Below are positions 8,100 to 63,465 of a DNA stretch of 64,000 bases, piece by piece. The stretch is taken from positions 1-64,000 of the forward strand of contig PKUV01000030.1 of the NCBI GenBank assembly GCA_003131315.1. The letters are read 5' to 3'. This DNA is from Acidobacteriaceae bacterium (lineage in GTDB: Bacteria; Acidobacteriota; Terriglobia; Terriglobales; Acidobacteriaceae). The notes under the pieces were generated by a model. It ran no database searches, was not told the DNA's origin, and saw nothing but the letters and a program-made list of their open reading frames with translations. A program made the translations under genes and the position numbers. Numbering within the stretch: position 1 is the stretch's first letter; each line of letters starts with the position of its first letter.

Positions 8100-8457
8100 G
8101 AATAGCGCTCGTGTAGGGACAGCCGTTCTCGGCTGTCCAAGCCGAGCGCAGCTCGGCAGCTGTCTATGTTCACATCAACGCCGGATTCGCTGCAGCTTCC
8201 TACAGCGTCGGATCTACCGCGGTGGAGCGAGGACAGCCCCAAAACCCAGCCCCGGAGGGGCGGCCTAGCTTAGCCCCGCGCTTCAGCGCGGGGTAAAGTG
8301 GAATGACGACTCAAGTTCCGGAGGGACGACCCAGTCCCCACTCACACTCTTCGATGGCCGGCCATCGAAGCCGACTTTTTCCGCAACCTCTTCAGCTAAG
8401 CCGCAATTGCCGCGTGATGAGAACGCCTTCACGCTCCGATCGCCGCCTTACAAGCCT
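8100..8457. repeat. Intergenic block of unrelated small hairpins
   Basis: Contains GGACAGCC/GGCTGTCC (8117-8138), GCCGAGC/GCTCGGC (8141-8157), CCCCGCG/CGCGGGG (8274-8293), and from about 8345 a fragment matching the right end of the MITE-like family (CATCGAAGCCGACTTTTTCC...CTCTTCAG). It lies between convergent genes; no coding frame is convincing. Confidence 0.6.
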
Positions 8458-51330: not shown

Positions 51331-52646
<1,316 letters not shown>

Positions 52647-53010
52647 GGCTCGGCCCTCCTCCACCCCTCTAAAGGAGAAATTCGCGTTCCAAATCACAGA
52701 ACTGGTTGAAAACAGGAAAGATCGGGAGAGGTCCTGCCTAGCCATTCGGGGATGGATTATGTGAACTATGAGGGCTAGCAAGTCTGTGCTTCCGGCTAAA
52801 AGCAAGAATGGGCATCTTTTGATGCAGCTTCTAGGAACTGGCCGGAGGTCTGCCATGCTCTGTCCCGCCTCAAGCCATCCGCTGCAACTATTTTGTTAGG
52901 AATACCGAGTCTCAATTGTCTAATCGTTGTAGGAGAAAATCGGCAGCTCCTGCGATTCGCAACCCCTCCTAAAGCTGCCTGGTCCCAATTCAATCTACAA
53001 GGAGTGAAAC
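52647..53010. other. Divergent int/xis control region
   Basis: Lies between the divergent integrase and excisionase-like genes and so must hold their promoters and probably arm-type sites. No clear -35/-10 pair is seen and no gene. An AAGGAG site ends it, 7 bases before the excisionase ATG. Confidence 0.45.
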
Positions 53011-53208
53011 ATGACTGCACTGCTGGACCTGAAGGAAGCTGGGCGTCTGCTGTCCATTTCGCCGTGGACTGTAAGAGCCTACGTGCGGGCCGGAAAGCTC
53101 AACCCGGTGCGGATTGGCCGGAGGGTTCTGCTCGAAGAGGCGGAGCTTCAAAGGTTCGTCGAGGAATCGAAAGCTCACCAGAACAAATCGGAGGCCAACA
53201 ACTCGTGA
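53011..53208 (+). CDS. Excisionase-like helix-turn-helix protein
   Basis: A 65-residue DNA-binding protein of the MerR-like HTH_17/AlpA type: LKEAGRLLSISPWTVRAYVR forms the helix-turn-helix and GKLNPVRIGRRVLLEEAELQ the wing and following helix. In small integrative elements such proteins direct excision or activate int. Its position divergent to int supports that role. AAGGAG lies 7 bases before the ATG. Confidence 0.88.
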   Translation: MTALLDLKEAGRLLSISPWTVRAYVRAGKLNPVRIGRRVLLEEAELQRFVEESKAHQNKSEANNS

Positions 53209-53250
53209 CCACCGACATCAACACGGATACTTCAATCAAAAGGGGCATCA

Positions 53251-53442
53251 ATGCTCAGTCTTAATCAGGCAAGTGAGCTGACCGGGATTCCAACCCCCGA
53301 ACTCTTGCTATTCGCTTTCACCGGACGGATTCCATTCATCAAAGACCTAGATACAAGAATGGTCTTTTTCGACTCGGTTACTCTGAATGCGGGCCAACTT
53401 GTGCGGATCGGACATGCTAAACAACCTGTATCGAACTTCTGA
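53251..53442 (+). CDS. Small hypothetical protein, HTH-like
   Basis: A 63-residue protein: SLNQASELTGIPTPELLLFA resembles the first helices of a MerR/excisionase-type fold, followed by RIPFIKDLDTRMVFFDSVTL, which could be the wing. It may be a second, diverged DNA-binding protein. AAAAGGGG precedes the ATG. It follows the excisionase gene by 42 bases and overlaps the next gene. Confidence 0.6.
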   Translation: MLSLNQASELTGIPTPELLLFAFTGRIPFIKDLDTRMVFFDSVTLNAGQLVRIGHAKQPVSNF

Positions 53443-53698
53443 ACTTGAACTTGCCAGCTTTCTGAAAGCAGAGGGGCACAAGGTTCTTGGCGCTGAACTC
53501 AAGGGCAAGCTTGTGGAATTTCAATTCGATGCCTCAGCAGAGGACGCCGTAGAACACTATTTCGTCGGGGCCTCTTTACCCGCGAGGGATCTGTTTGAAG
53601 CCCATCGCAGCCTAAGAGCACTCATCGTACAGATTCACGAACACGCATCGAATCGGAGAAGAACGGAACAAAGCAATGGCAAAGGCCACACTCGTTAA
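53414..53698 (+). CDS. DUF5659-like small protein
   Basis: A 94-residue protein beginning LNNLYRTSELELASFLKAEG, a pattern I associate with DUF5659 proteins of mobile elements, of unknown function. The remainder (EFQFDASAEDAVEHYFVG) suggests a small alpha/beta domain. It overlaps both neighbours by 29 and 23 bases, so the small genes and the ATPase are read as one operon. ATG 53,387 is an alternative start. Confidence 0.65.
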   Translation: MLNNLYRTSELELASFLKAEGHKVLGAELKGKLVEFQFDASAEDAVEHYFVGASLPARDLFEAHRSLRALIVQIHEHASNRRRTEQSNGKGHTR

Positions 53699-54875
53699 TT
53701 CCAACTTTCCTGCGTTTCCCTTAGACATCATGCATGGTTTGGCGAAGGAGTTCGTTGATCTCTACTCGCCAATTCGTGAGACACCGCCAGAGTTCTTGTG
53801 GCTGGCCTTCGTGACATATCTCGGCAATTTGTTGAGTCCCTATATAGGACTCGATTGTGCAGCATCAGAGCCCCGTTTCTACGGAGTAGCTATTGGTAAA
53901 AGCGGACGTACTCGCAAATCAGCGGGTCAGAATGCCGCGAAGGACGTTTTCGAACAGGTTCACAGCTCCCAGACTATTATTCAGGGTTTTGGATCAACGG
54001 AGGGTGTCCTGTACTCTGTCCGCGCAAAAGGGGAGAATCCTTCTCCAAAAACCGCGATCATTCATCTTGATGAGATGAACCAGATGGCCGCAAAGACTGG
54101 AATTGCAGGTTCTGCCGGGTTTGCCCCCTTACACAAGCTCTTTGAAGATCACGACTATCATCACCCGCTCGCCAAAGGCGAGGGATACACAGTACGGAAT
54201 GTTTACCTCTCGCTTCTGGGTGCCAGCACCCTAGAGGATTTTCAAAAAAGTTGGGATTCGAAACACGCGGATGCGGGGACGTTCAGCAGACTGTTTGTAG
54301 TTGCTGCGGATTCGAAAACACGCATCCCTCGCCCGATGAATCCTAATCCAGAAGCACTCGAACACTTAGTGCAGAGAATTCAGCAAACCGCCTCTACCCT
54401 TCAGCAACAACCCCGACGAACAATGACCATGAGTCCTGACGCAGAACAACTCTGGAAAACCTTCTACATGGAGAATTTCCGCGACGATGTTGAATGGAAC
54501 CGAATTGATACGTATGGATTCCGTTTCATGGCGCTGCAAACTATATTGCGGGATGAGGCACAGGTCACGAAGAAGAACGTGCAAGAGGTCATTGACTTGC
54601 TGCTTTACGAAGTGGCAACGAGACGAGCTGTGAATCCTGTCGTAGCGGAAAATGACTTTGCCCGCATCGAAGAGTTAATCCGCAGACACCTACCGGAGGG
54701 AACCACAATGAGTAAGCGTGAGTTGGGAAGGGCGATAAATGCTCACCGGTACGGGATCAGATACTTTGATACAGCATTATTCAGTCTCCAGGGTAATCAC
54801 GAAATTGGAATGCGCCGAGATCGCGGGAACCGAACGCTCGTCACTCGCCTACGAGATGAAGAAACTGCCTCAGAA

Positions 54876-55099
<224 letters not shown>

Positions 55100-55229
55100 T
55101 GAAGACGGGTCAGATGATCTAGTTGACAACGGCTCCTTAATCCTGGGGAGGTCAAGCGGGCTGTGGTATCCACAGGCTTGGAGCTTCTTGTCTAGCTCCT
55201 ACCCCGTGTACCCTACCCTCCCTACCTAG

Positions 55230-55253
55230 GGCAACAATTTACTTGACACACAA
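55230..55253 (+). repeat. Left terminal inverted repeat of the IS1595 unit
   Basis: GGCAACAATTTACTTGACAC then ACAA; preceded by target duplication CCTACCTAG (55,221-55,229). Confidence 0.9.
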
Positions 55254-55277
55254 AGGTAGTTGATACACAATAGGGGT

Positions 55278-56234
55278 ATGGAAAACGAAGCCAAAACCCC
55301 TAAAACCCTGCAAGAAGCCATTGTATTCTTCTCCGATCCTGACCGCGCTTTGGCCTTCGCCATGATTCTGCGCTGGCCCGATGGCAAGATCACCTGCCCG
55401 CGTTGCGGCTTCGATCAGCACTCGTTTATTTCCAGCCGTCGCATCTGGTTCTGCAAGGGATGTAAGAAGCAGTTCACTATCAAGGTCGGGACGATCTTCG
55501 AGGATTCCCCGCTAGGCATGGACAAGTGGATGACCGCCGTTTGGCTGGTTGCGAATTGTAAGAATGGCGTGAGCAGCTACGAGATCGCCCGCGATCTGGG
55601 GATCACGCAAAAGTCGGCTTGGTTTATGATGCACCGCGTCCGCAACGCAATGCAATCCGGCTCATTCGGTAAGCTGTCCGGGGAGATAGAAGCAGACGAA
55701 ACTTTCATCGGAGGCAAGTCCCGCAACATGCACGTTGCCCAGCGCCAGCGCCGAATCACTGGCACCGGCGGCAAAGATAAAACTGCGGTCATGGGCATCT
55801 TGCAGCGTGGCGGAGAGGTTCGTACCAAGGTGATCTCAAGCCGGAAGAAGAAGGAACTGCAATCTGAGGTTCGGAAGCATGTCGAAGCGGGATCGGCGCT
55901 CTACACCGATGCGCTTATGTCCTACGAGGGGCTGGCAACCGACTACGCGCATCAAGTCGTAGACCATGCCGTTCAATACGTGAATGGTCGCGTTCACACG
56001 AACGGTCTTGAGAATTTCTGGTCGCTGTTCAAGCGGGGGATCGGCGGAACCTACGTCTCAGTTGAGCCGTTCCACTTGTTCCGATACTTGGATGAGCAAA
56101 TGTTCCGCTACAACAACCGCAAAGAAATGAACGATGCGGATAGATTCCAAGCTGTCATGGGTAACGTCACTGGGCGTCGGCTCACTTGGAGGGAACTGAC
56201 TGGCAAGATGGAGGGCGGGACATGTGTTAACTGA
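55278..56234 (+). CDS. IS1595-family (ISXO2-like) transposase
   Basis: A 318-residue transposase. An N-terminal zinc ribbon (Cys40, Cys43, Cys59, Cys62: CPRCGF...FCKGCKK) is followed by a helix-turn-helix (SSYEIARDLGITQKSAWFMM) and the ISXO2-like DDE/DDN catalytic domain with Asp140 (EADETFIGGK), Asp211 (LYTDALMSY) and Asn242/Glu245 (HTNGLENFWS). ATG 55,278 is used; TTG 55,260 would add six residues. No frameshift or stop is seen, so the enzyme appears intact. It lies 25 bases inside the left terminal repeat. Confidence 0.94.
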   Translation: MENEAKTPKTLQEAIVFFSDPDRALAFAMILRWPDGKITCPRCGFDQHSFISSRRIWFCKGCKKQFTIKVGTIFEDSPLGMDKWMTAVWLVANCKNGVSSYEIARDLGITQKSAWFMMHRVRNAMQSGSFGKLSGEIEADETFIGGKSRNMHVAQRQRRITGTGGKDKTAVMGILQRGGEVRTKVISSRKKKELQSEVRKHVEAGSALYTDALMSYEGLATDYAHQVVDHAVQYVNGRVHTNGLENFWSLFKRGIGGTYVSVEPFHLFRYLDEQMFRYNNRKEMNDADRFQAVMGNVTGRRLTWRELTGKMEGGTCVN

Positions 56235-56273
56235 GAAGGAAAAGCAGAGGCAAAAACGTGGGAGCAGGCAGGG

Positions 56274-56435
56274 TTAAATTCCGGCTTTCTTAATTTTCCG
56301 GTGAGTCGGCTTCGAGTCTTGTGATTCCGACTTCGGAACGCGGAACAGTGCTTTCATTGTTCGCGTGAAATTGTCGAATGCTTTCTGGCCTTCCTCGATT
56401 TCCAGCTTACGCCGCGTATGCGGTTCTGATTTCAT
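56274..56435 (-). CDS. 53-residue conserved-looking small protein
   Basis: A short, highly charged protein: MKSEPHTRRKLEIEEGQKAF then DNFTRTMKALFRVPKSESQD and a basic tail (THRKIKKAGI). The phrase around a helical F..tM.aLFrVPKsE recurs in small unnamed bacterial proteins, as I recall. It sits inside the transposon, convergent with the transposase and divergent (138 bases) from the unknown gene/PIN pair, so a role as regulator or antitoxin is possible but unproven. The ribosome site is weak. Confidence 0.55.
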   Translation of the reverse strand: MKSEPHTRRKLEIEEGQKAFDNFTRTMKALFRVPKSESQDSKPTHRKIKKAGI

Positions 56436-56573
56436 TTCGTTCACCGATGGCCTATAATCCTAGCCGGATCATCCTGTTCATTCTTGGCGGAAGGTCTAGA
56501 GTGATCCCCTATCTGCGAGCCCTCAATATATGTGTGACTACAGGTTAATCCTAGGGTACCATGGGTGGCCAAA

Positions 56574-57368
56574 ATGTCGCAGCCAATTTTTTTCCGCGTA
56601 GGAACTGAGCGCCAAATCGATCTCTCCACGTTCGTGGATTCTGTCCGAGATTTTCTATACATCCTCAAAGATGTGGACGCCACCCTCTCTGAAAAATCCC
56701 ATGGAAGCGTGAAATGGATGGTCGAAGTGCTAGAGAAGCCCGATGCTGCAGTAGTTGGCGTTTTACCCATCCCTCGCAAACCATTATTTGATCGAAGTTC
56801 TGCGGTGAAATCGCAGGTGATTGAGAACACCAGCCTATTGTCTACAAAAGGTGAAAGAAACAAATTCTTTTCTGATGGTGCACTTTCGCATGTAGGTAAG
56901 CTGGCGAACCGAACGCCGAAAATTGGTCCGATGGCGATTTGGACGCCGCAAAACGGACGGCCAAAACAGGAGAGTGAAATTTCTCAAGCCACGCTCCGAA
57001 ATGTCGAGGAATTGACTGGCCCAAAGTATTCTGGCTTTGGCTCTGTTACTGGAAGTTTAGATGCGATTTCTGTTCACCGAGGAGCTGAATTTCGCATTTG
57101 GGACAAGGAAAGTGGAAAGCCAGTTCGATGCTTCTTTAAGCCTGATTTCGAGGGGAAGGTGAAGGATTCTCTTCGCAAGGTCGTGGTTGTAACTGGGGAA
57201 ATGCTGATGAACAGTGCAGGCAACCCACTTTCAATAAAGGTAGACGATTTAGAAGAGGCTCCACCAAGAGCCGATCTGGTACCAATACAGAGTCTGTCAG
57301 GAATTATCAAGGATTTCACTGGCGGGGTGTCTTTGAAGAAATACCTAGAGGAATCTGCCGATGAGTGA
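56574..57368 (+). CDS. Unknown protein paired with the PIN nuclease
   Basis: A 264-residue cytoplasmic protein without recognised domain. The N-terminal 90 residues form a predicted alpha/beta part (ERQIDLSTFVDSVRDFLYIL...GSVKWMVEVLE), a basic linker follows, and the last 130 look beta-rich (GFGSVTGSLDAISVHRGAEF, FRIWDKESGKPVRCFFKPDF, VVVTGEMLMNSAG). Its stop overlaps the PIN gene by 8 bases, so the two are translationally coupled, as in antitoxin-toxin pairs, although it is far larger than usual antitoxins. ATG 56,574 is preferred to GTG 56,565. A TATAAT at 56,453 may be its -10 box. Markedly AT-rich. Confidence 0.8.
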   Translation: MSQPIFFRVGTERQIDLSTFVDSVRDFLYILKDVDATLSEKSHGSVKWMVEVLEKPDAAVVGVLPIPRKPLFDRSSAVKSQVIENTSLLSTKGERNKFFSDGALSHVGKLANRTPKIGPMAIWTPQNGRPKQESEISQATLRNVEELTGPKYSGFGSVTGSLDAISVHRGAEFRIWDKESGKPVRCFFKPDFEGKVKDSLRKVVVVTGEMLMNSAGNPLSIKVDDLEEAPPRADLVPIQSLSGIIKDFTGGVSLKKYLEESADE

Positions 57369-57972
57369 TTTCCGTAAACTATATTGGGATACGACATGTT
57401 TTATTTGTTTTCTCAACGATAGCGACCATGAGAGGGAGCGGCACTATATCTGTGAAGATATACTCCAGCACTCCGCAAACGGTACTGCTGAAATTTGGAC
57501 CTCATCCTTCACCATCGCAGAAGTGATACGCCCACGAGACAAGTTCATCGCGAAGCCACTTCCAAGCTGGACCGATGCGGTATTGGAGAAATTCCCACAA
57601 GTGGAAATCCCTCTTCGGAATTTATGGAACTTCCACATCCAAAGGACGCGACCGACACGTCTGCTCACGAAAAAAGAGATGGATGGAATAAGCCAACTTC
57701 TACATCCTGACCGAATACACACGATTAAACTTGATGATCGGATCGCTGCATCGGCAGTTGAGATTTCTCGCAATTATGGACTCAAACCTGCCGATGCGAT
57801 TCATGCGGCCTCAGCCATAGACCTGCACAAGCGTAAGAAAGTTGAGGTGCTTCAGCACTGGGATAAGGACTACGACAAACTTAAGGATTTGATTCCGGTG
57901 GAATTTCCAACCAGAATTTCACCACAACATGCCTTCAAGGAATTTATTAAACCGTTGGGTGAGTCTGGATAA
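57361..57972 (+). CDS. PIN-domain ribonuclease (VapC-like, long form)
   Basis: A 203-residue protein with a PIN fold: acidic residues Asp10 (LYWDTTCFICFLND), Glu54 (SFTIAEVIRP), Asp145 (KPADAIHAASA) and Asp168/Asp170 (HWDKDYDKL) form the metal-binding nuclease site. Classical VapC toxins have about 130 residues; here there is an extra helical insert (about 70-125) and a 30-residue C-terminal extension. PIN toxins usually cut RNA, often tRNA anticodon arms. It overlaps the unknown upstream gene, and an unusual tRNA gene begins (3' end) 10 bases after its stop on the other strand. Confidence 0.88.
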   Translation: MSDFRKLYWDTTCFICFLNDSDHERERHYICEDILQHSANGTAEIWTSSFTIAEVIRPRDKFIAKPLPSWTDAVLEKFPQVEIPLRNLWNFHIQRTRPTRLLTKKEMDGISQLLHPDRIHTIKLDDRIAASAVEISRNYGLKPADAIHAASAIDLHKRKKVEVLQHWDKDYDKLKDLIPVEFPTRISPQHAFKEFIKPLGESG

Positions 57973-57982
57973 TTTGGGGAAG

Positions 57983-58099
57983 TGGTCGGGATACCGGGAA
58001 TTGAACCCGGACGGGTTGCCCCAGCAGTTTGGCTAGCGGCCCTTCGCCTTATAAGGACAGCTAACAAACTGCCGCGTCTGCCAATTCCGCCATATCCCG
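57983..58099 (-). tRNA. tRNA-Leu-like gene with enlarged anticodon loop
   Basis: Outside the anticodon arm it is a canonical class II tRNA-Leu: acceptor CGGGATA/TATCCCG, TG, D arm GCGGAATTGGCAGACGC, long variable arm TGGGGCAACCCGT, T arm CCGGG-TTCAATT-CCCGG and ACCA. The anticodon stem GCAGT/ACTGC encloses 39 nt instead of 7, so about 32 nt are extra. The insert can extend the stem (TTG/CAA) and form further helices TAGC/GCTA and GTCCTT/AAGGGC. Total 117 nt. No anticodon can be read safely. It may be a degenerate tRNA, a tRNA with a tiny intron, or a decoy. It lies within the IS1595 unit. Confidence 0.75.
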
Positions 58100-58107
58100 A
58101 TCTCTTA

Positions 58108-58113
58108 ATTCTA
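58108..58113 (-). promoter_or_regulatory. Candidate -10 box of the tRNA-Leu-like gene
   Basis: TAGAAT on the minus strand, 8 bases before the tRNA 5' end, in correct position for a transcript starting at or near the mature end. No clear -35. Confidence 0.45.
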
Positions 58114-58161
58114 CCTCACTTGTTCTGGGGGAGGATAACTAACCTATTTTCGGTATCAGGG

Positions 58162-58185
58162 TTGTGCGTCAAGTAAGTTGTTGCC
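58162..58185 (-). repeat. Right terminal inverted repeat of the IS1595 unit
   Basis: On the minus strand GGCAACAACTTACTTGACGC then ACAA; followed by target duplication CCTACCTAG (58,186-58,194). Confidence 0.9.
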
Positions 58186-58194
58186 CCTACCTAG

Positions 58195-58683
58195 ACCCGT
58201 GTGGGCTTACATCTGTAAGTCCTTTGTTATCTATAGACCGCCGCGACCCTTTTGCACGAGAAACCCACTATTCTCAGTTTGGAGTCATATGGCCCATCCA
58301 ACCATTCCGACAGCGATTCAGGACGCCAAGGGCTACTTCATAGCCCACCATTGGCGATAGTCAGCAGACGAGCCGTAGCACCCTTGGCCTCACTTCTACC
58401 CAAAAAACCCCTTTACCTGCGCCACGCTCCGGCGAGCCGGAATTATTGCGAAGAAAGGGCAACCCGCTCATACACTTGAACCCATTCAGAATCAGAGAAT
58501 TCCGTCGAATAAAAGGCGGAAAAGGGTAGCGCATCCTGCAAGAATACTGAGGTTCGTCGGGCAGGCTTTCTTTTGGCATTACTATTTTGCACTCAAGAAC
58601 TTAGAGAGAAATGTACGCTGTATGTTTATTCTCGTTAATCGCTTTGGACTCAACAATATAGATGCGATAGAACGTTTTCGGTC
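58195..58683. other. Gap inside the element, no gene recognised
   Basis: Several short frames exist but none has a ribosome site plus protein-like composition. It probably includes the 3' end of the element's older backbone interrupted by the transposon. Confidence 0.4.
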
Positions 58684-59205
58684 CTAATCACCGAGGCTCA
58701 GGTCTCCAATCCTATCGTTTACACCATAGCCGACTATTTTTCCCGTCCGCATCTCACTGAGTAAGAGAGACCTTTCCCCACAGACAATAAAAATTCTGTT
58801 GGTTTGCGCATCGGGATTGGTAATTGGCTGATGGATGATTGTGCAGTTTGAGAGCTGGTTTGTGTCAGCAAGCGATCCGAGAGCAGCAAGGGTGCTCTGA
58901 AAGGCATCCAGACCACTGTTCGGCACGTACCATTCTCGGTCCGCAAACGTGAGCCGGTCATTTTTGAAGTGTGTGAGATGGGTAACAAATTGCGACTGCT
59001 CCACGAACAGAATTGCATCCTTTTCTCCGGCAACAGGAAGTTGCTTGAATCCAGCAGAAGAATATCGGCTGACCACTTCCTGACGTGACATTCCCAACCA
59101 TACAGTCGCACTGCCCACTTCGAGGGTGACCTTCCTAGGAGCAGATTGGGCCGTGCAAAGGCAGCATAGGACGGTAAGGATAATGATTCGCATGTGGTGG
59201 CGCAT
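58684..59205 (-). CDS. Hypothetical exported protein
   Basis: A 173-residue protein with a signal peptide (MRIIILTVLCCLCTAQSAP; cleavage near AQSA, or a lipobox-like Cys). The mature segment VWLGMSRQEVVSRYSSAGFK loosely recalls SmpA/BamE-type G-M-x-x-x-E-V motifs, but the rest does not match. ATG 59,205 is chosen since AGGAGG lies 10 bases upstream. It is divergent from the Xre-type regulator. Role in the element unknown. Confidence 0.65.
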   Translation of the reverse strand: MRHHMRIIILTVLCCLCTAQSAPRKVTLEVGSATVWLGMSRQEVVSRYSSAGFKQLPVAGEKDAILFVEQSQFVTHLTHFKNDRLTFADREWYVPNSGLDAFQSTLAALGSLADTNQLSNCTIIHQPITNPDAQTNRIFIVCGERSLLLSEMRTGKIVGYGVNDRIGDLSLGD

Positions 59206-59298
59206 TTCGACGAACCTCCTTTCCTGTGTGAATTCTACGCCTGACTGTTGCGTAAACACGATTTGTAGTTCATTTCCGACACGCCATGATGCAGGTCA

Positions 59299-59496
59299 AT
59301 GCCAAAGGATCTGCTCATTCGCCTGGGAAACCGGATTCGGAGGCTTCGGAAGAAGCGCGGCTGGACTCAGGTGGAGATGGCCGAGCAAGTGGGGATTGAT
59401 CGGAGTTTTCTGGCGGACGTGGAGAGGGGAAAAAGGAATGTTTCGATTCTCAATGTGGACTTGATTGCGAAGGGCTTGAAAATTTCCCTTTCTTAG
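59299..59496 (+). CDS. Xre-family transcriptional regulator (possible R-M controller)
   Basis: A 65-residue single-domain Cro/C1-type protein: LGNRIRRLRKKRGWTQVEMA, then EQVGIDRSFLADVERGKRNV covering the helix-turn-helix, and a final helix LIAKGLKISL. Its length and sequence style match C proteins that control restriction-modification genes, and it is convergent with the type IIG gene 264 bases away. A GATGCAGG stretch precedes the ATG. Confidence 0.88.
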   Translation: MPKDLLIRLGNRIRRLRKKRGWTQVEMAEQVGIDRSFLADVERGKRNVSILNVDLIAKGLKISLS

Positions 59497-59759
59497 CTCT
59501 TCTCACGGTTGTGAGCGCGCGTAGGCTGCCGAGGTTACCAATCGCGAAGCCAGTTAAAACAGCCTTGCTTCTACCCAGAACCCCTTGCCTGGAGAAGTAA
59601 CCCCAGTTTTGCACGACATCACCTTTGAACACTCCCGATCCGTCCGGGATCTTACAAGCGGTGAAAAACCGGGGTCAAATGGTCAAAGGGAGAAGGGAAA
59701 GGGAGGGGTCTAGAGCGCCCCCCCCTCAGGTCAACGGTTGGGGTTCTTTGCTATTGGTC
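59497..59759. other. Convergent intergenic region with a small hairpin
   Basis: Holds GATCCGTCCGGGATC-type pairing near 59,637-59,652 and a C-rich run at 59,718-59,725. No gene. A terminator function is possible but lacks a good T run. Confidence 0.35.
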
Positions 59760-62700
59760 TTAAACTGTGGCTACTTCTTCGACTGAGGGCTCAGTATCGT
59801 CTTCTTCCTCTTCCAGGATTACTCCAGCCTCTTCGACCAGCGTTCTCTCTGCCTCATTTAACCCGTAGACCTGGTAGACGATCTCATCGATCTCATGGTC
59901 GGTGCTGGAGATTCTTCGCCGCAGTGCGTTTTGTGCGTGTTCTGCCTTCTCGGACAGGAGCTGTTCGTTCAGTGAACACATCGCCTTCGCCAATGTGCCC
60001 AGAGTCTCTGTGTGTCTCGACTCCTGAAGATTAGGGAAGGGTATGCCATTAAGTTTTGCTGCTTTCACTTGTGGAATGACCCGAGACTCTCCCTGGTTGG
60101 AGACACGGTATAGGAATAGAAAGAGCTTGGATTGCAGGATTGCCATTGCTGCCCAAGGGTCTATGCCCCCCTTCAGCCCAAACACATACATGGCGTCCGT
60201 TACATAGAGGGATTCCTTCTCGTCATAAACCAACTCGATAGTCTTCTTTGTAGTGAGACCGATGAACTTTGGCGAAGCGAAGATCTGTGGCTCCCTTGGA
60301 CGATGCAGGCACCACCAGGGATGCTTCCCTTGCTTTGCTTCCTTGCAGGTATTCAGAGGACGAGCACGCCTGATGTACTTGGCAGCTCGCGGATAGTCTC
60401 TCAGGTCGGTTTCGCGTGTGGCGTAGATGATGTACTGGTCTGATGTCCAAGGTCTATATCGCTTGATCTGAGAGCCGCCCAAACTCTTCCTAAGAATCTC
60501 CGTCTCCAGCTTCTCTTTGCGTTGCTTTTGCTTGCTGAGGACGTGCATCTCAACCACGTCGGGACTGACTCCCCGCTGAATCTCTCCGTTTATCGCTTCA
60601 GAGAATTTTGGATGATTCTTGCGAAGTTTGGTCCACAACGCCACAGGTCTCTTGTCATTTACGACGAAGAAAGTGTAGTCAGGATCTTGTTCAACGAATG
60701 ACTTCCACTCATCCCAATCGTACTTATGTAGCTCTGAAATCTTTGCCTGTCTCTCGGCTATGGACAGCATTGACAGGTCACGCATGGAAATACAGTCAGG
60801 ACTCTTACGAGGCTCGCTGACAAACACCGTGGACGTGTTCAACGGCTTTGGACCAAAGATGCCCTGTCCGAGACTCACTAAGACCGACAGACCACGTTTC
60901 AGAAGGATCTCTCGAATAGGCTTGGCATCTACTTGATTGAGCATGGTGCTCGGAATGATGAAACCCAATGGAGCATTCTTGTTGAGAAGGAGAGTCGCCT
61001 GGTCAATGAAATAGATGTATGAATCAATCATCCTTGCAACGGACCTGGAGTAGCGGTCAGCGAGGTATTCTCTCTCCTCCTCGGTATACTCGGCTCCCCA
61101 AGGAGGATTTCCTACGACGGCACTAAACTTTTCAGGCTCGTTGGTCCACGGAAACTCTTTGTCCCAATCAAAAGCGTTAATCGGTCGGGCGTCGGGGTCT
61201 TCCCCGAAAGACATCTGTTTATTCTTGTAGTAATCATTGGCAATCAGTGAATTGCCGCATTTGATGTTGTTGGTGAGATTGGGAAGGAAGGTTTCCTTCG
61301 GAAACAGTGTTTGCTGTTTGCCCAACGTGGAGCGAGTTTCGCCCTCAAGAATCTTTAGATACAGCGACAGCATGGTCACTTCGACCGCACTGGAATCAAT
61401 GTCAACACCGTAAACGTTGCTCAACATGATTTCACGCTTCAGGTGGGTAGTAAGGTGCAAACCCTTCTGATCGTCCAGGTAGCAGTTGTCTTTTTTCTGC
61501 TGGTCAGGGTGGGCCTGAAGCCAGCGGAGATGGTGCTCGCATACTCTCTCGAACACCCTGAGCAGAAAGCTACCCGAACCACATGCGGGGTCAACGAACT
61601 TCAGTTTGGACACTTCTTTAGGTGTCTTGTTATCAACTAGTCGTCCCACCGTATTCTCAACGATGTAATCCACGACATAGCGGGGAGTGTAGTAAACGCC
61701 GCCTGCCTTCCGTGCTTCTGGCTTCAGAACAACTTTGACGCTCCGCCCTCTTGTGAGTCGGATTGTCTTGCCGATAAATCGCTCATAAACTTGTCCGAGG
61801 ATTTCAACTGGAAGCGTGCTGAACAAGTAAGGTGAGTCTTCACTTGATAGGTCTCCGATGATGTCAGCCAAGAACTGGTCTGAGACGGCGACATTCTCGG
61901 ATTCGTGTCCCTTGTGGAAGAGAGCACCGTTGAAGCTCTCATCGAGGGAACGGAAGTGAGAGACCAAGAGGTTATAAAGCGGTGGTCTACCGACCTCCAT
62001 CGACTCCCAGCCCTGGAGAATGAGTTCCAAGGAGCGACCCGTATCAATGTCACGGTCCTCACAAATGCGAACGAACAAGATGCGGTCAAGGATTCTTTGC
62101 GTAACCTCGTTCAAAAGTGCATTGTTCCATTTGTAGTTCTTGTTTTCTTTGAGGAGATCCTTTGCCAAGAGGAGCCGCTGTTGCTCAATGTAAGCCAAGA
62201 ACTCAGCGTCTACCGTGCGTACACGATCTAAGGCGATTAGCCAGCCCTGACGTGCTTTTCCTTTTACCGCTCGCTTCGGGAAACTCGCTACGAACTTGTC
62301 GAGGGCGTTGGAAGCTACATTCTGCCGTGCGAACAGATTCCAGATCTCTTCGGCTTTGTCGTTGTACTCGGAATAGTGCCACTCCTTGCAAATGTCCCAC
62401 GGTGAATCTTGGTCTGGTCTTCCTCCCACGACAAATACTTGAAGCCGCTCAAAATTGCAGAGAGTCGCAATTAGCAACTTCAAGTTGAAGGCGTACCGCT
62501 GTGCTTGGTATGCAGACCTCCGCGTTAGCTCTTCGGTGGGTTTCTTGGCTTCGCAGACGAAGCGGTCAATACCATCGGTGCGGAAGATGTAATCCGCTCG
62601 TTTCTGCTTCCCGCCGATGTTCACACGAGTTTCGAGTTGCACATCGCGGAGAGGTTGTGGGAGCCCAGCTCTATTCTCGATGTCCCAGCCCAATGCTCTC

Positions 62701-62840
62701 CACAGAGGGTTTAGGAAATCATTGCGGAGGGAGGTTTCGACGTAACCCTCAGCCTTGTGTTGAGAGGAATTCTTGTGAAAGGTATCAACCAGGCGGGACA
62801 GCTCCTGCTTGAAGTCTTCTAACGTGGTGTCGGCGGGCAT
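59760..62840 (-). CDS. Type IIG (Eco57I-like) restriction-modification enzyme
   Basis: A 1026-residue bifunctional defence enzyme that methylates adenine in its site and cuts unmethylated DNA. The N-terminal nuclease has a PD-(D/E)xK site (Asp83, Glu97, Lys99: RADYIF...CEAKK). The N6-adenine methyltransferase shows motif X GGVYYTP (380-386), motif I FVDPACGSGSF (415-425), YGVDIDSSAVEVTMLSLYL, and motif IV NPPW (578-581). The C-terminal part (about 700-1000) holds the TaqI-like specificity domain. TTGGAG precedes the ATG. A PglX role is less likely as no BREX genes adjoin. The frame is intact. Confidence 0.92.
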   Translation of the reverse strand: MPADTTLEDFKQELSRLVDTFHKNSSQHKAEGYVETSLRNDFLNPLWRALGWDIENRAGLPQPLRDVQLETRVNIGGKQKRADYIFRTDGIDRFVCEAKKPTEELTRRSAYQAQRYAFNLKLLIATLCNFERLQVFVVGGRPDQDSPWDICKEWHYSEYNDKAEEIWNLFARQNVASNALDKFVASFPKRAVKGKARQGWLIALDRVRTVDAEFLAYIEQQRLLLAKDLLKENKNYKWNNALLNEVTQRILDRILFVRICEDRDIDTGRSLELILQGWESMEVGRPPLYNLLVSHFRSLDESFNGALFHKGHESENVAVSDQFLADIIGDLSSEDSPYLFSTLPVEILGQVYERFIGKTIRLTRGRSVKVVLKPEARKAGGVYYTPRYVVDYIVENTVGRLVDNKTPKEVSKLKFVDPACGSGSFLLRVFERVCEHHLRWLQAHPDQQKKDNCYLDDQKGLHLTTHLKREIMLSNVYGVDIDSSAVEVTMLSLYLKILEGETRSTLGKQQTLFPKETFLPNLTNNIKCGNSLIANDYYKNKQMSFGEDPDARPINAFDWDKEFPWTNEPEKFSAVVGNPPWGAEYTEEEREYLADRYSRSVARMIDSYIYFIDQATLLLNKNAPLGFIIPSTMLNQVDAKPIREILLKRGLSVLVSLGQGIFGPKPLNTSTVFVSEPRKSPDCISMRDLSMLSIAERQAKISELHKYDWDEWKSFVEQDPDYTFFVVNDKRPVALWTKLRKNHPKFSEAINGEIQRGVSPDVVEMHVLSKQKQRKEKLETEILRKSLGGSQIKRYRPWTSDQYIIYATRETDLRDYPRAAKYIRRARPLNTCKEAKQGKHPWWCLHRPREPQIFASPKFIGLTTKKTIELVYDEKESLYVTDAMYVFGLKGGIDPWAAMAILQSKLFLFLYRVSNQGESRVIPQVKAAKLNGIPFPNLQESRHTETLGTLAKAMCSLNEQLLSEKAEHAQNALRRRISSTDHEIDEIVYQVYGLNEAERTLVEEAGVILEEEEDDTEPSVEEVATV

Positions 62841-63410
62841 GGCGACTCCAAGAATACTACTGGTCTGCCAGGAATGGTGTTATACGGCAAAAGGAACCCC
62901 ACCAGGCACGCTGTCCGAGCCCCTTGCAGCTCTCCTTCGCCTTTTTCCCAAGAATATACCCCCCAGCGGCAGGCAGCCCCACTCTAAGAATCCGCCCAAA
63001 CTCCGGCCAGCCGCGCCAGCGCCTGCCAATGCCGTGGATGCGGCCCGGTAGCCTTGCCGGATCCGGCCTGCATACCAACGCGAGACACCAATTCGTGATC
63101 GAATCGTAGTGAAAGCATGACTTGAGTCCGGGCAAAGGGGTTTTGGGGTAGAAGAGAAATGCTGCTGACCCAAATTTCCAATTTTCAACTGCGTGTCGGG
63201 GCTGGGTCCTCTTTGTTGGCAAACCCCCACCCCCTTGGTGGTAGCTTAAACTTCTCCGGCTGGGAATTTGCGATCCAACCCCACTGTAGCGGATACTGTA
63301 GCGACTACCTGCTTAGAAGGATTTGGCTGGAGTTGGTTGCTGGGAATGGAGGCTCAATCCTTGCAATGATCTGCACCTGGATGCAACTCCGGCCCAAATC
63401 CGTCCGAAGA
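62841..63410. other. Right end of the element, no gene recognised
   Basis: A 570-base stretch between the R-M gene and attR. Minus-strand frames here (for example 62,857-63,222) lack protein-like features. It may contain integrase arm sites of the circular form; TGTAGCGGATACTGTAGCGA near 63,284 has a repeated word TGTAGCG. Confidence 0.4.
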
Positions 63411-63465
63411 ACTCTTAATCAGTAGGTTGTAGGTTCGATTCCTACCGCGCTCACCATCTTTTCAA
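63411..63465 (+). repeat. attR, 55-bp copy of tRNA-Lys 3' half
   Basis: Identical to 51,361-51,415; lacks the tRNA 5' half, so it is not a functional tRNA. Confidence 0.95.

Follow-up and report, generated by a model that had tools for sequence, protein, structure and literature searches.

A tRNA-Leu-like gene with a hairpin in place of its anticodon arm, carried with a PIN nuclease gene pair by an IS1595-family transposon

What is a tRNA-Leu-like gene, with a hairpin where its anticodon arm should be, doing next to the gene of a PIN-domain nuclease? The question is raised by a stretch of 64,000 nucleotides (contig PKUV01000030.1, referred to as the window) from the genome of an Acidobacteriaceae bacterium, which is available as 6.0 Mb in 194 contigs. 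The original prediction, made from this stretch by itself, read the two genes and an adjoining gene for a 264-residue protein as a possible nuclease module with a tRNA as target, decoy or resistant form, all within one transposon.

The transposon spans positions 55229–58186 and holds all three cargo genes. It is bounded by 25-nt terminal inverted repeats of 92% identity (left, 55229–55253; right, 58162–58186), and a copy in a phage contig has the same ends, the left one included. Target duplications of the sequence CTACCTAG flank it at 55222–55229 (8 bp, base 55229 being assignable to either the repeat or the duplication) and at 58187–58194; in the window copy there is an additional C on the right. 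The transposase gene (55278–56234, plus strand, 318 aa) matches the Pfam models PF12762 (E 1.6e-41) and PF12760 and the NCBIfam model NF033547 (183.8 bits, cut-off 75), and its product is a DDE transposase of the IS1595/ISXO2 type with a zinc ribbon. Terminal inverted repeats and an 8-bp target duplication are the norm in the IS1595 family, and the element has ends of this type.

The copy in the phage contig IMGVR_UViG_3300036884_000163 is identical base for base from 55229 to 58186. The alignment of the two spans 55222–58186 and contains 2 mismatches, both inside the target duplication. The phage copy lies at a different site and has a perfect duplication of its own, CTACTTTG, on both sides. 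Since the element is identical in both places and each copy has its own duplication, we conclude that the transposase gene, the gene pair and the tRNA-like gene are one mobile unit, which has moved recently into a phage genome. On the point of a single transposon the original prediction was therefore right.

In the bacterium the transposon sits inside a 12-kb island (51361–63465) integrated in a tRNA-Lys gene (51331–51406). The island is delimited by a 55-base perfect direct repeat, the left copy at 51361–51415 in the tRNA-Lys gene and the second at 63411–63465. It encodes a phage-type integrase (51369–52856, minus strand, PF00589), a Type IIG restriction-modification enzyme (59760–62840) and a DUF3987 protein. 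Elsewhere in the window, an Acido-Lenti-1 RNA is recognised by Rfam at 8248–8293 (55.6 bits); it points to Acidobacteriota, as do the closest relatives of the transposon, most of them acidobacterial.

The first two cargo genes lie on the plus strand and overlap by 8 bases. The upstream one (56574–57368, 264 codons from its ATG) encodes a protein without a match among Pfam, NCBIfam and PADLOC models, and the downstream one (57361–57972) encodes a PIN-domain nuclease of 203 aa (PF01850, E 1.5e-10). The acidic residues D10, E54, D145 and D168 of the nuclease, which have a catalytic role in the family, are also present in its relative at locus L034 (two-member alignment). A structure model of the nuclease was useless (mean pLDDT 33.8), and a sequence search found no relatives of known structure. 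For the partner, an AlphaFold2 model built from three sequences had a mean pLDDT of 47.9 and was good only for residues ~150–230. This C-terminal domain is predicted to form an OB fold, a common nucleic-acid-binding fold. Its best structural matches are single-strand DNA-binding proteins (Z 9.2 and 9.0), PriB (Z 8.8) and the anticodon-binding domain of AspRS (Z 8.4), a Z of 8 being reached by 37 of 998 aligned chains; the top rows of a Foldseek search are LysRS (best E 8.5e-4). A nucleic-acid-binding role of the partner, as the model suggests, is plausible, and we regard the protein as a candidate antitoxin or regulator of the nuclease. The pair alone is most likely a toxin-antitoxin or abortive-infection module that guards the element and its carrier. 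The long-form PIN gene coupled to a 264-residue gene of no known family is thus borne out by the PF01850 match and the 8-base overlap, and the predicted nuclease module takes the shape of a toxin-antitoxin-type pair with the acidic residues of the PIN domain kept and an OB-fold domain predicted in the partner.

The third cargo gene (57983–58099) lies on the minus strand, 10 bases from the PIN stop codon, in convergent orientation and outside the PIN operon. Positions 57986–58099 match the Rfam tRNA model RF00005 at 43.3 bits (cut-off 29), and the next three bases are an encoded CCA. All stems of the tRNA body form, with 7 acceptor, 3 D, 4 variable-arm and 5 T pairs, and the gene has T8, A14, G18G19, a TTCAA T-loop, A73 and the CCA end. 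It has the cloverleaf body, long variable arm, A73 and CCA of a tRNA-Leu. Where the anticodon arm should be there is a hairpin (58024–58072, minus strand) with 19 base pairs, a single mismatch, a single bulge and a loop of 8 nt; its folding energy is –24.6 kcal/mol. Folding z-scores are –5.66 for the whole RNA and –4.64 for the hairpin alone, and in each case none of 200 shuffles folded as well. The predicted minus-strand tRNA-Leu-like gene with an altered anticodon arm, 10 bases from the end of the PIN gene, is thereby confirmed; its ‘enlarged anticodon loop’ turns out to be a long hairpin (19 bp, end loop of 8 nt).

The closest ordinary relatives of the gene are tRNA-Leu(UAG) genes. Compared with the genome's own tRNA-Leu(UAG), identity is 19 of 19 from T8 through the D arm and 12 of 13 for the variable arm. 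It falls to 2 of 7 and 3 of 8 in the two acceptor strands and to 11 of 17 in the T arm, with pairing kept. The stems differ likewise from those of all six tRNA-Leu genes of the same genome that were compared, and from the nearest ones compared in the phylum, again with pairing kept. With respect to the leucine tRNA genes of its own genome, the stems of this gene have changed in concert. Such divergence bears on whether the gene is a dead or dying tRNA gene, picked up by chance and with its anticodon arm destroyed by an inverted duplication. In favour of that reading, just one sequence is known, in two identical copies, so that conservation cannot be measured on it; moreover, tRNA oddities beside mobile elements are mostly fragments, according to the excerpted text of PMC9897764. 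This gene is no fragment: nothing is missing from either end, from the four stems of the body, or from A73 and CCA. Its stems have diverged with pairing kept, whereas neutral decay would break pairs, which is evidence against a dead gene. Nor is the hairpin a repeat found elsewhere in the genome at BLAST sensitivity. We consider a dead gene unlikely, though well within consideration.

Among the 18 of 52 tRNA matches of the genome that were examined, ordinary leucine genes with the anticodons TAG, TAA, CAG (two), CAA and GAG were present. Since the genome already has these, the tRNA-like gene is not needed for decoding. The same genome also has a tight cluster of odd tRNA-like genes (C155:22589–23057), read by ARAGORN as Leu, Ser, Tyr and Leu; several have low Rfam scores, the two ‘Leu’ genes are just 77 nt long, and there is one more match to the tRNA model at 187–288 of the extracted locus (L047). 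ARAGORN further reports tRNA-Ile(TAT) genes of 91 nt in this genome (C42:5137–5226; L045:58–148) and of 93 nt at another locus (L283:8778–8870), both with a long variable region, which is unusual for isoleucine.

Replacement of the anticodon region is found in phages as well. A pattern requiring a leucine-type D arm and a T loop 52–82 nt apart identified at least 120 loci in IMG/VR viral contigs (L110–L229), and ARAGORN in default mode reported a tRNA in 2 of the 120 listed. The acceptor stem pairs at 7 of 7 positions in 98, and the T stem at 5 of 5 in 113, of the 119 loci measurable in canonical register among the at least 120 listed. The acceptor lies outside the search pattern, and swapping strands between the 59 distinct acceptors gives 7 of 7 pairs in 2.6%. 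Because acceptor pairing far exceeds this strand-swap rate, we conclude that the upper half of the phage loci is a genuine tRNA-like body. The middle part varies from locus to locus. Among 114 distinct inserts, 41% contain crossing stems of –6 kcal/mol or better, compared with 16% of shuffles, an enrichment that gives some of the inserts a pseudoknot-like look. In this large set 52–82 nt of variable sequence take the place of the anticodon and variable arms; examples are L118:7291–7403, L185:4099–4209 and L131:4210–4318. At least four contigs (L131, L118, L119 and L115) have two or more such tRNA-model matches each. The L185 gene also occurs, without annotation, in an isolate, Bacteroides phage BS-TP2, where it lies between the DUF2303 and NinG genes. 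Six loci (L121, L145, L162, L167, L186 and L187) combine a leucine-type D arm with an apparent CTGTTTA loop (GTT) and a variable arm of ~27–35 nt.

A hairpin together with a variable arm was observed in 4 of 115 genes among the matches listed (0.75 expected): the phage copy of the window gene and those at L149, L175 and L195. The latter three (L149:6617–6733 and L195:3272–3403 among them) have a hairpin in the anticodon loop and a normal variable arm. Since in each of them some excision restores a leucine loop, these could be tRNA-Leu genes broken up by an insert of unusually small size.

These three genes invite a similar reading of the window gene, as a working tRNA with a short anticodon-loop intron, for whose removal the PIN nuclease might be responsible. 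In L149, L175 and L195 excision can give the leucine loops CTTAAAA or CTCAAAA, and ARAGORN, which misses the window gene in default mode, does fit an intron of 32 nt to it in intron mode, which makes the gene Gly(gcc) or Asn(gtt). All eight 7-nt loops that a single excision can make from the window gene, however, carry GCC, GTC or GTT. A 7-nt loop with a leucine anticodon is absent from the gene as it stands and after any single excision, and a leucine-type body that carried leucine together with an anticodon for Gly, Asp or Asn would misread. No excision of the eight leaves the cognate loop expected on removal of a group I or archaeal-type intron, and an Rfam scan of the window found no intron families. 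An intron is thus very unlikely. Because no leucine anticodon can be made, the ‘resistant form’ of the original prediction is also unlikely if it is taken to mean a functional tRNA that stands in for another.

The gene could also act through its shape as DNA or RNA, serving the PIN operon or the transposon by protecting a 3′ end, terminating transcription or marking the transposon end. Its position between the PIN stop codon and the right inverted repeat would suit such a role, and the complement folds equally well, the tRNA model matching the plus strand at 31 bits. On the other hand, no T-run follows the hairpin, terminator-like sites elsewhere number 2 where 3.2 are expected, such a structure is absent from all 80 related transposon loci compared (the best 80 of 128), and the full tRNA detail would be superfluous. 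A purely structural role is very unlikely. A promoter scan revealed no clear tRNA promoter, and none in the right repeat; over the element it gave 1 site, at the left end, for the transposase, while shuffles give 2.9.

Whether the tRNA goes with the nuclease pair can be judged from its recurrence. The open reading frame of the partner has relatives in 2 of 396 genomes of the phylum when used as a single query and in 3 of 396 with a two-row profile, so that the pair is rare. As a single query the partner had no relative in one genome-contig scan and none in plasmids, and in viral contigs the two-row profile found just the same phage contig. The PIN query matched in 2 of 396 genomes, with no match in plasmids or phages. 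The second of these two PIN matches, in genome G103 (E 8.7e-4, residues 8–71), in a 282-aa frame beside an apparent transposon integrase, was taken as chance. Two other genomes have the same gene order: in G067 (L034) the frames lie on the minus strand at 1483–2304 and 945–1490 and overlap by 8 bases, and in G074 (L231) overlapping frames lie at 916–1911 and 1908–2327. Relatives of the open reading frames of these two loci were absent from plasmids, and those of L034 from viral contigs.

Neither of these loci has a match to the tRNA model, and the same is true of the 15-kb stretches around both, in which Rfam found one ordinary 73-nt tRNA ~3.5 kb from the pair around one (L343) and nothing around the other (L344). 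In phmmer searches of the viral and genomic loci, a tRNA of this kind with another PIN pair was not seen, only the same element, and the phage tRNA-Leu-like loci have no relatives of the PIN protein or its partner beyond that element.

For the tRNA-like gene, a BLAST search with 131 bases against the 396 genomes returned, besides itself, D-arm-sized matches only, the best of them 36 bases long at 48 bits. The covariance model made from the gene (R1; up to 9 candidates scored per genome, so that a distant extended form may escape) matched in 333 of the 396 genomes; the gene itself scored 147.9 bits and the next best among the matches listed 70.6 bits, the other listed matches being ordinary tRNA-Leu genes of 84–87 nt. 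Among viral contigs, exact patterns for either arm, anticodon or variable, hit only the one phage contig, and BLAST gave only 24–25-base D-arm matches in 7 phage records and none in plasmids.

The association of tRNA and nuclease is thus seen once, in two identical copies, and its function is neither proved nor excluded; a general pairing of such a tRNA with the gene pair is therefore removed as a claim. The idea that the tRNA is tied to the nuclease lacks recurrence, as both other carriers of the pair are without such a tRNA within 15 kb. The proposed check, that the tRNA is always adjacent in genomes with the pair, fails in these two; the pair cannot be said to occur widely without it either, three loci being too few. 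That the genes lie so near one another could be an accident of packing.

What related transposons carry provides another perspective. Transposase relatives were found in 22 viral contigs, one being the same phage contig; of the 21 others, the 20 scanned with Rfam (L097 was left out) have no tRNA. From 128 genomic relatives, mostly acidobacterial, the best 80 were kept (L263–L342). None of these 80 has an R1 match or, in frames of at least 50 codons, a relative of the partner or of the PIN protein. A script searched for inverted repeats in the 78 of 80 with a transposase frame; 18 were without a repeat and 2 of implausible size, leaving 58 for use, among which L324 and L340 have apparent chance repeats. 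Some loci are cut by contig ends. ARAGORN, run on 58 of the 80 loci, found 3 tRNAs, all beyond the element bounds. Cargo is present in every one of the 58 usable elements as a frame of 90 or more codons, and in 42 of them the longest such frame is on the minus strand. When 14 cargo proteins from viral and genomic relatives, that of L090 included, were compared with Pfam at the thresholds applied, DUF3800 was found in L098, L107 and L263 (L283 falling just under the cut-off), a C5 DNA methylase in L091, AIPR in L301 and L303 and AAA_15/AAA_21 in L335; the rest had no match. Names such as AIPR and AbiEii, the latter for the AAA proteins, suggest a part in phage defence, so that the PIN toxin-like pair fits the cargo pattern of the related transposons.

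The explanation we put forward, at slightly less than an even chance of being right, is a cargo-carrying IS1595-family transposon with a two-gene toxin-antitoxin-like module and a separate, non-decoding mimic of tRNA-Leu. The mimic would be transcribed, trimmed in the fashion of a tRNA and probably charged with leucine, and would be unable to read leucine codons. We infer that it can be charged because bacterial LeuRS reads A73 and the core, not the anticodon: for the E. coli enzyme A73 is crucial and the anticodon is not, and the anticodon arm is dispensable for aminoacylation, as stated in the excerpt of PMC9976931. Its most likely use would then be to lure proteins that bind tRNA-Leu, as a decoy or bait, and chiefly the nucleases of the PIN/VapC type that cut tRNA, whether the element's own, 10 bases away, or those of the host or of a rival element. 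Though the likeliest of its uses, this is itself less probable than not.

A closer bond between the parts would be a dedicated three-part system, in which the PIN protein recognises tRNA-Leu, the mimic is a decoy, an RNA antitoxin or a bait until infection, and the OB-fold protein is the antitoxin or an adaptor. The 10-base spacing recurs in an element identical at two places, and the OB folds of the tRNA-binding domains of AspRS and LysRS are among the best structural matches of the partner. PIN toxins targeting tRNA-Leu are known, such as VapC-mt11, which cuts it in the anticodon loop (PMC6459853, in excerpt), and phage tRNAs with altered anticodon loops are proposed to escape VapC and similar nucleases in the part of PMC10264068 consulted. 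Yet both other carriers of the pair lack the tRNA, single-strand DNA-binding OB folds match at least equally well (Z 9.2 and 9.0 versus 8.4 for AspRS), and the tRNA gene is convergent with the PIN gene and outside its operon. We rate such a system as improbable, on a level with the dead gene. The boldest version is more speculative still, and it would be quite surprising if it proved right: a mobile RNA-protein system of three parts in which a leucylatable tRNA mimic, its hairpin taking the part of the anticodon stem-loop, checks or guides the PIN nuclease, with the OB-fold partner as adaptor. The mimic would then be an RNA antitoxin or decoy with the body of a tRNA, passing between bacteria and phages, and a bacterial member of the wider set of anticodon-less phage tRNA-Leu-like RNAs.

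With the non-decoding mimic as the preferred reading, the RNA, if made, would be a tRNA in all but adaptor function beside an RNase of a tRNA-cutting family, and a natural, testable case of a tRNA body used as decoy or scaffold in the conflicts of mobile elements. As the two copies show, tRNA-like genes can travel on IS1595 transposons between a phage and an island in a bacterium. The tRNA-Leu-like genes of phages described above, in turn, form a large set that tRNA finders overlook in default mode. Neither a tRNA as IS1595 cargo nor anticodon-less phage tRNA-Leu genes were described in the literature searched, outside which lay most subscription journals and preprints.

The element resembles the ‘transporter IS’, an insertion sequence with passenger genes, a concept named in PMC3129680 and traced there, in the excerpt, to the IS1595 paper of Siguier et al. 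2009. It shares with them the transposase family, inverted repeats of the form GGG(C/T)AA..ACTTGAC, the 8-bp duplication and cargo placed after the transposase gene, but its cargo includes a tRNA-like gene, which is absent from the related loci examined. With VapBC modules the pair has in common a PIN domain with conserved acidic residues, an overlapping partner gene upstream and a location on a mobile element. The PIN protein is long (203 aa), however, and instead of a small VapB-type antitoxin with a DNA-binding N-terminus there is a 264-aa partner with a predicted OB-fold domain, belonging to no Pfam, NCBIfam or PADLOC family. The phage tRNA-Leu-like genes are, like the window gene, phage-borne, with leucine-type D and T arms, an acceptor and a replaced middle; most are without a normal variable arm and some are pseudoknot-like, whereas hairpin and variable arm together are shared by 3 of the 114 distinct others listed (L149, L175 and L195), which could be interrupted decoding genes. 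Finally, the phage tRNAs of van den Berg et al. 2023 keep their anticodon and should decode, as far as the excerpt of PMC10264068 goes, while the gene described here has none and adjoins a nuclease gene; what the two have in common is a tRNA on a mobile element, an altered anticodon arm and the theme of PIN nucleases that cut tRNA.
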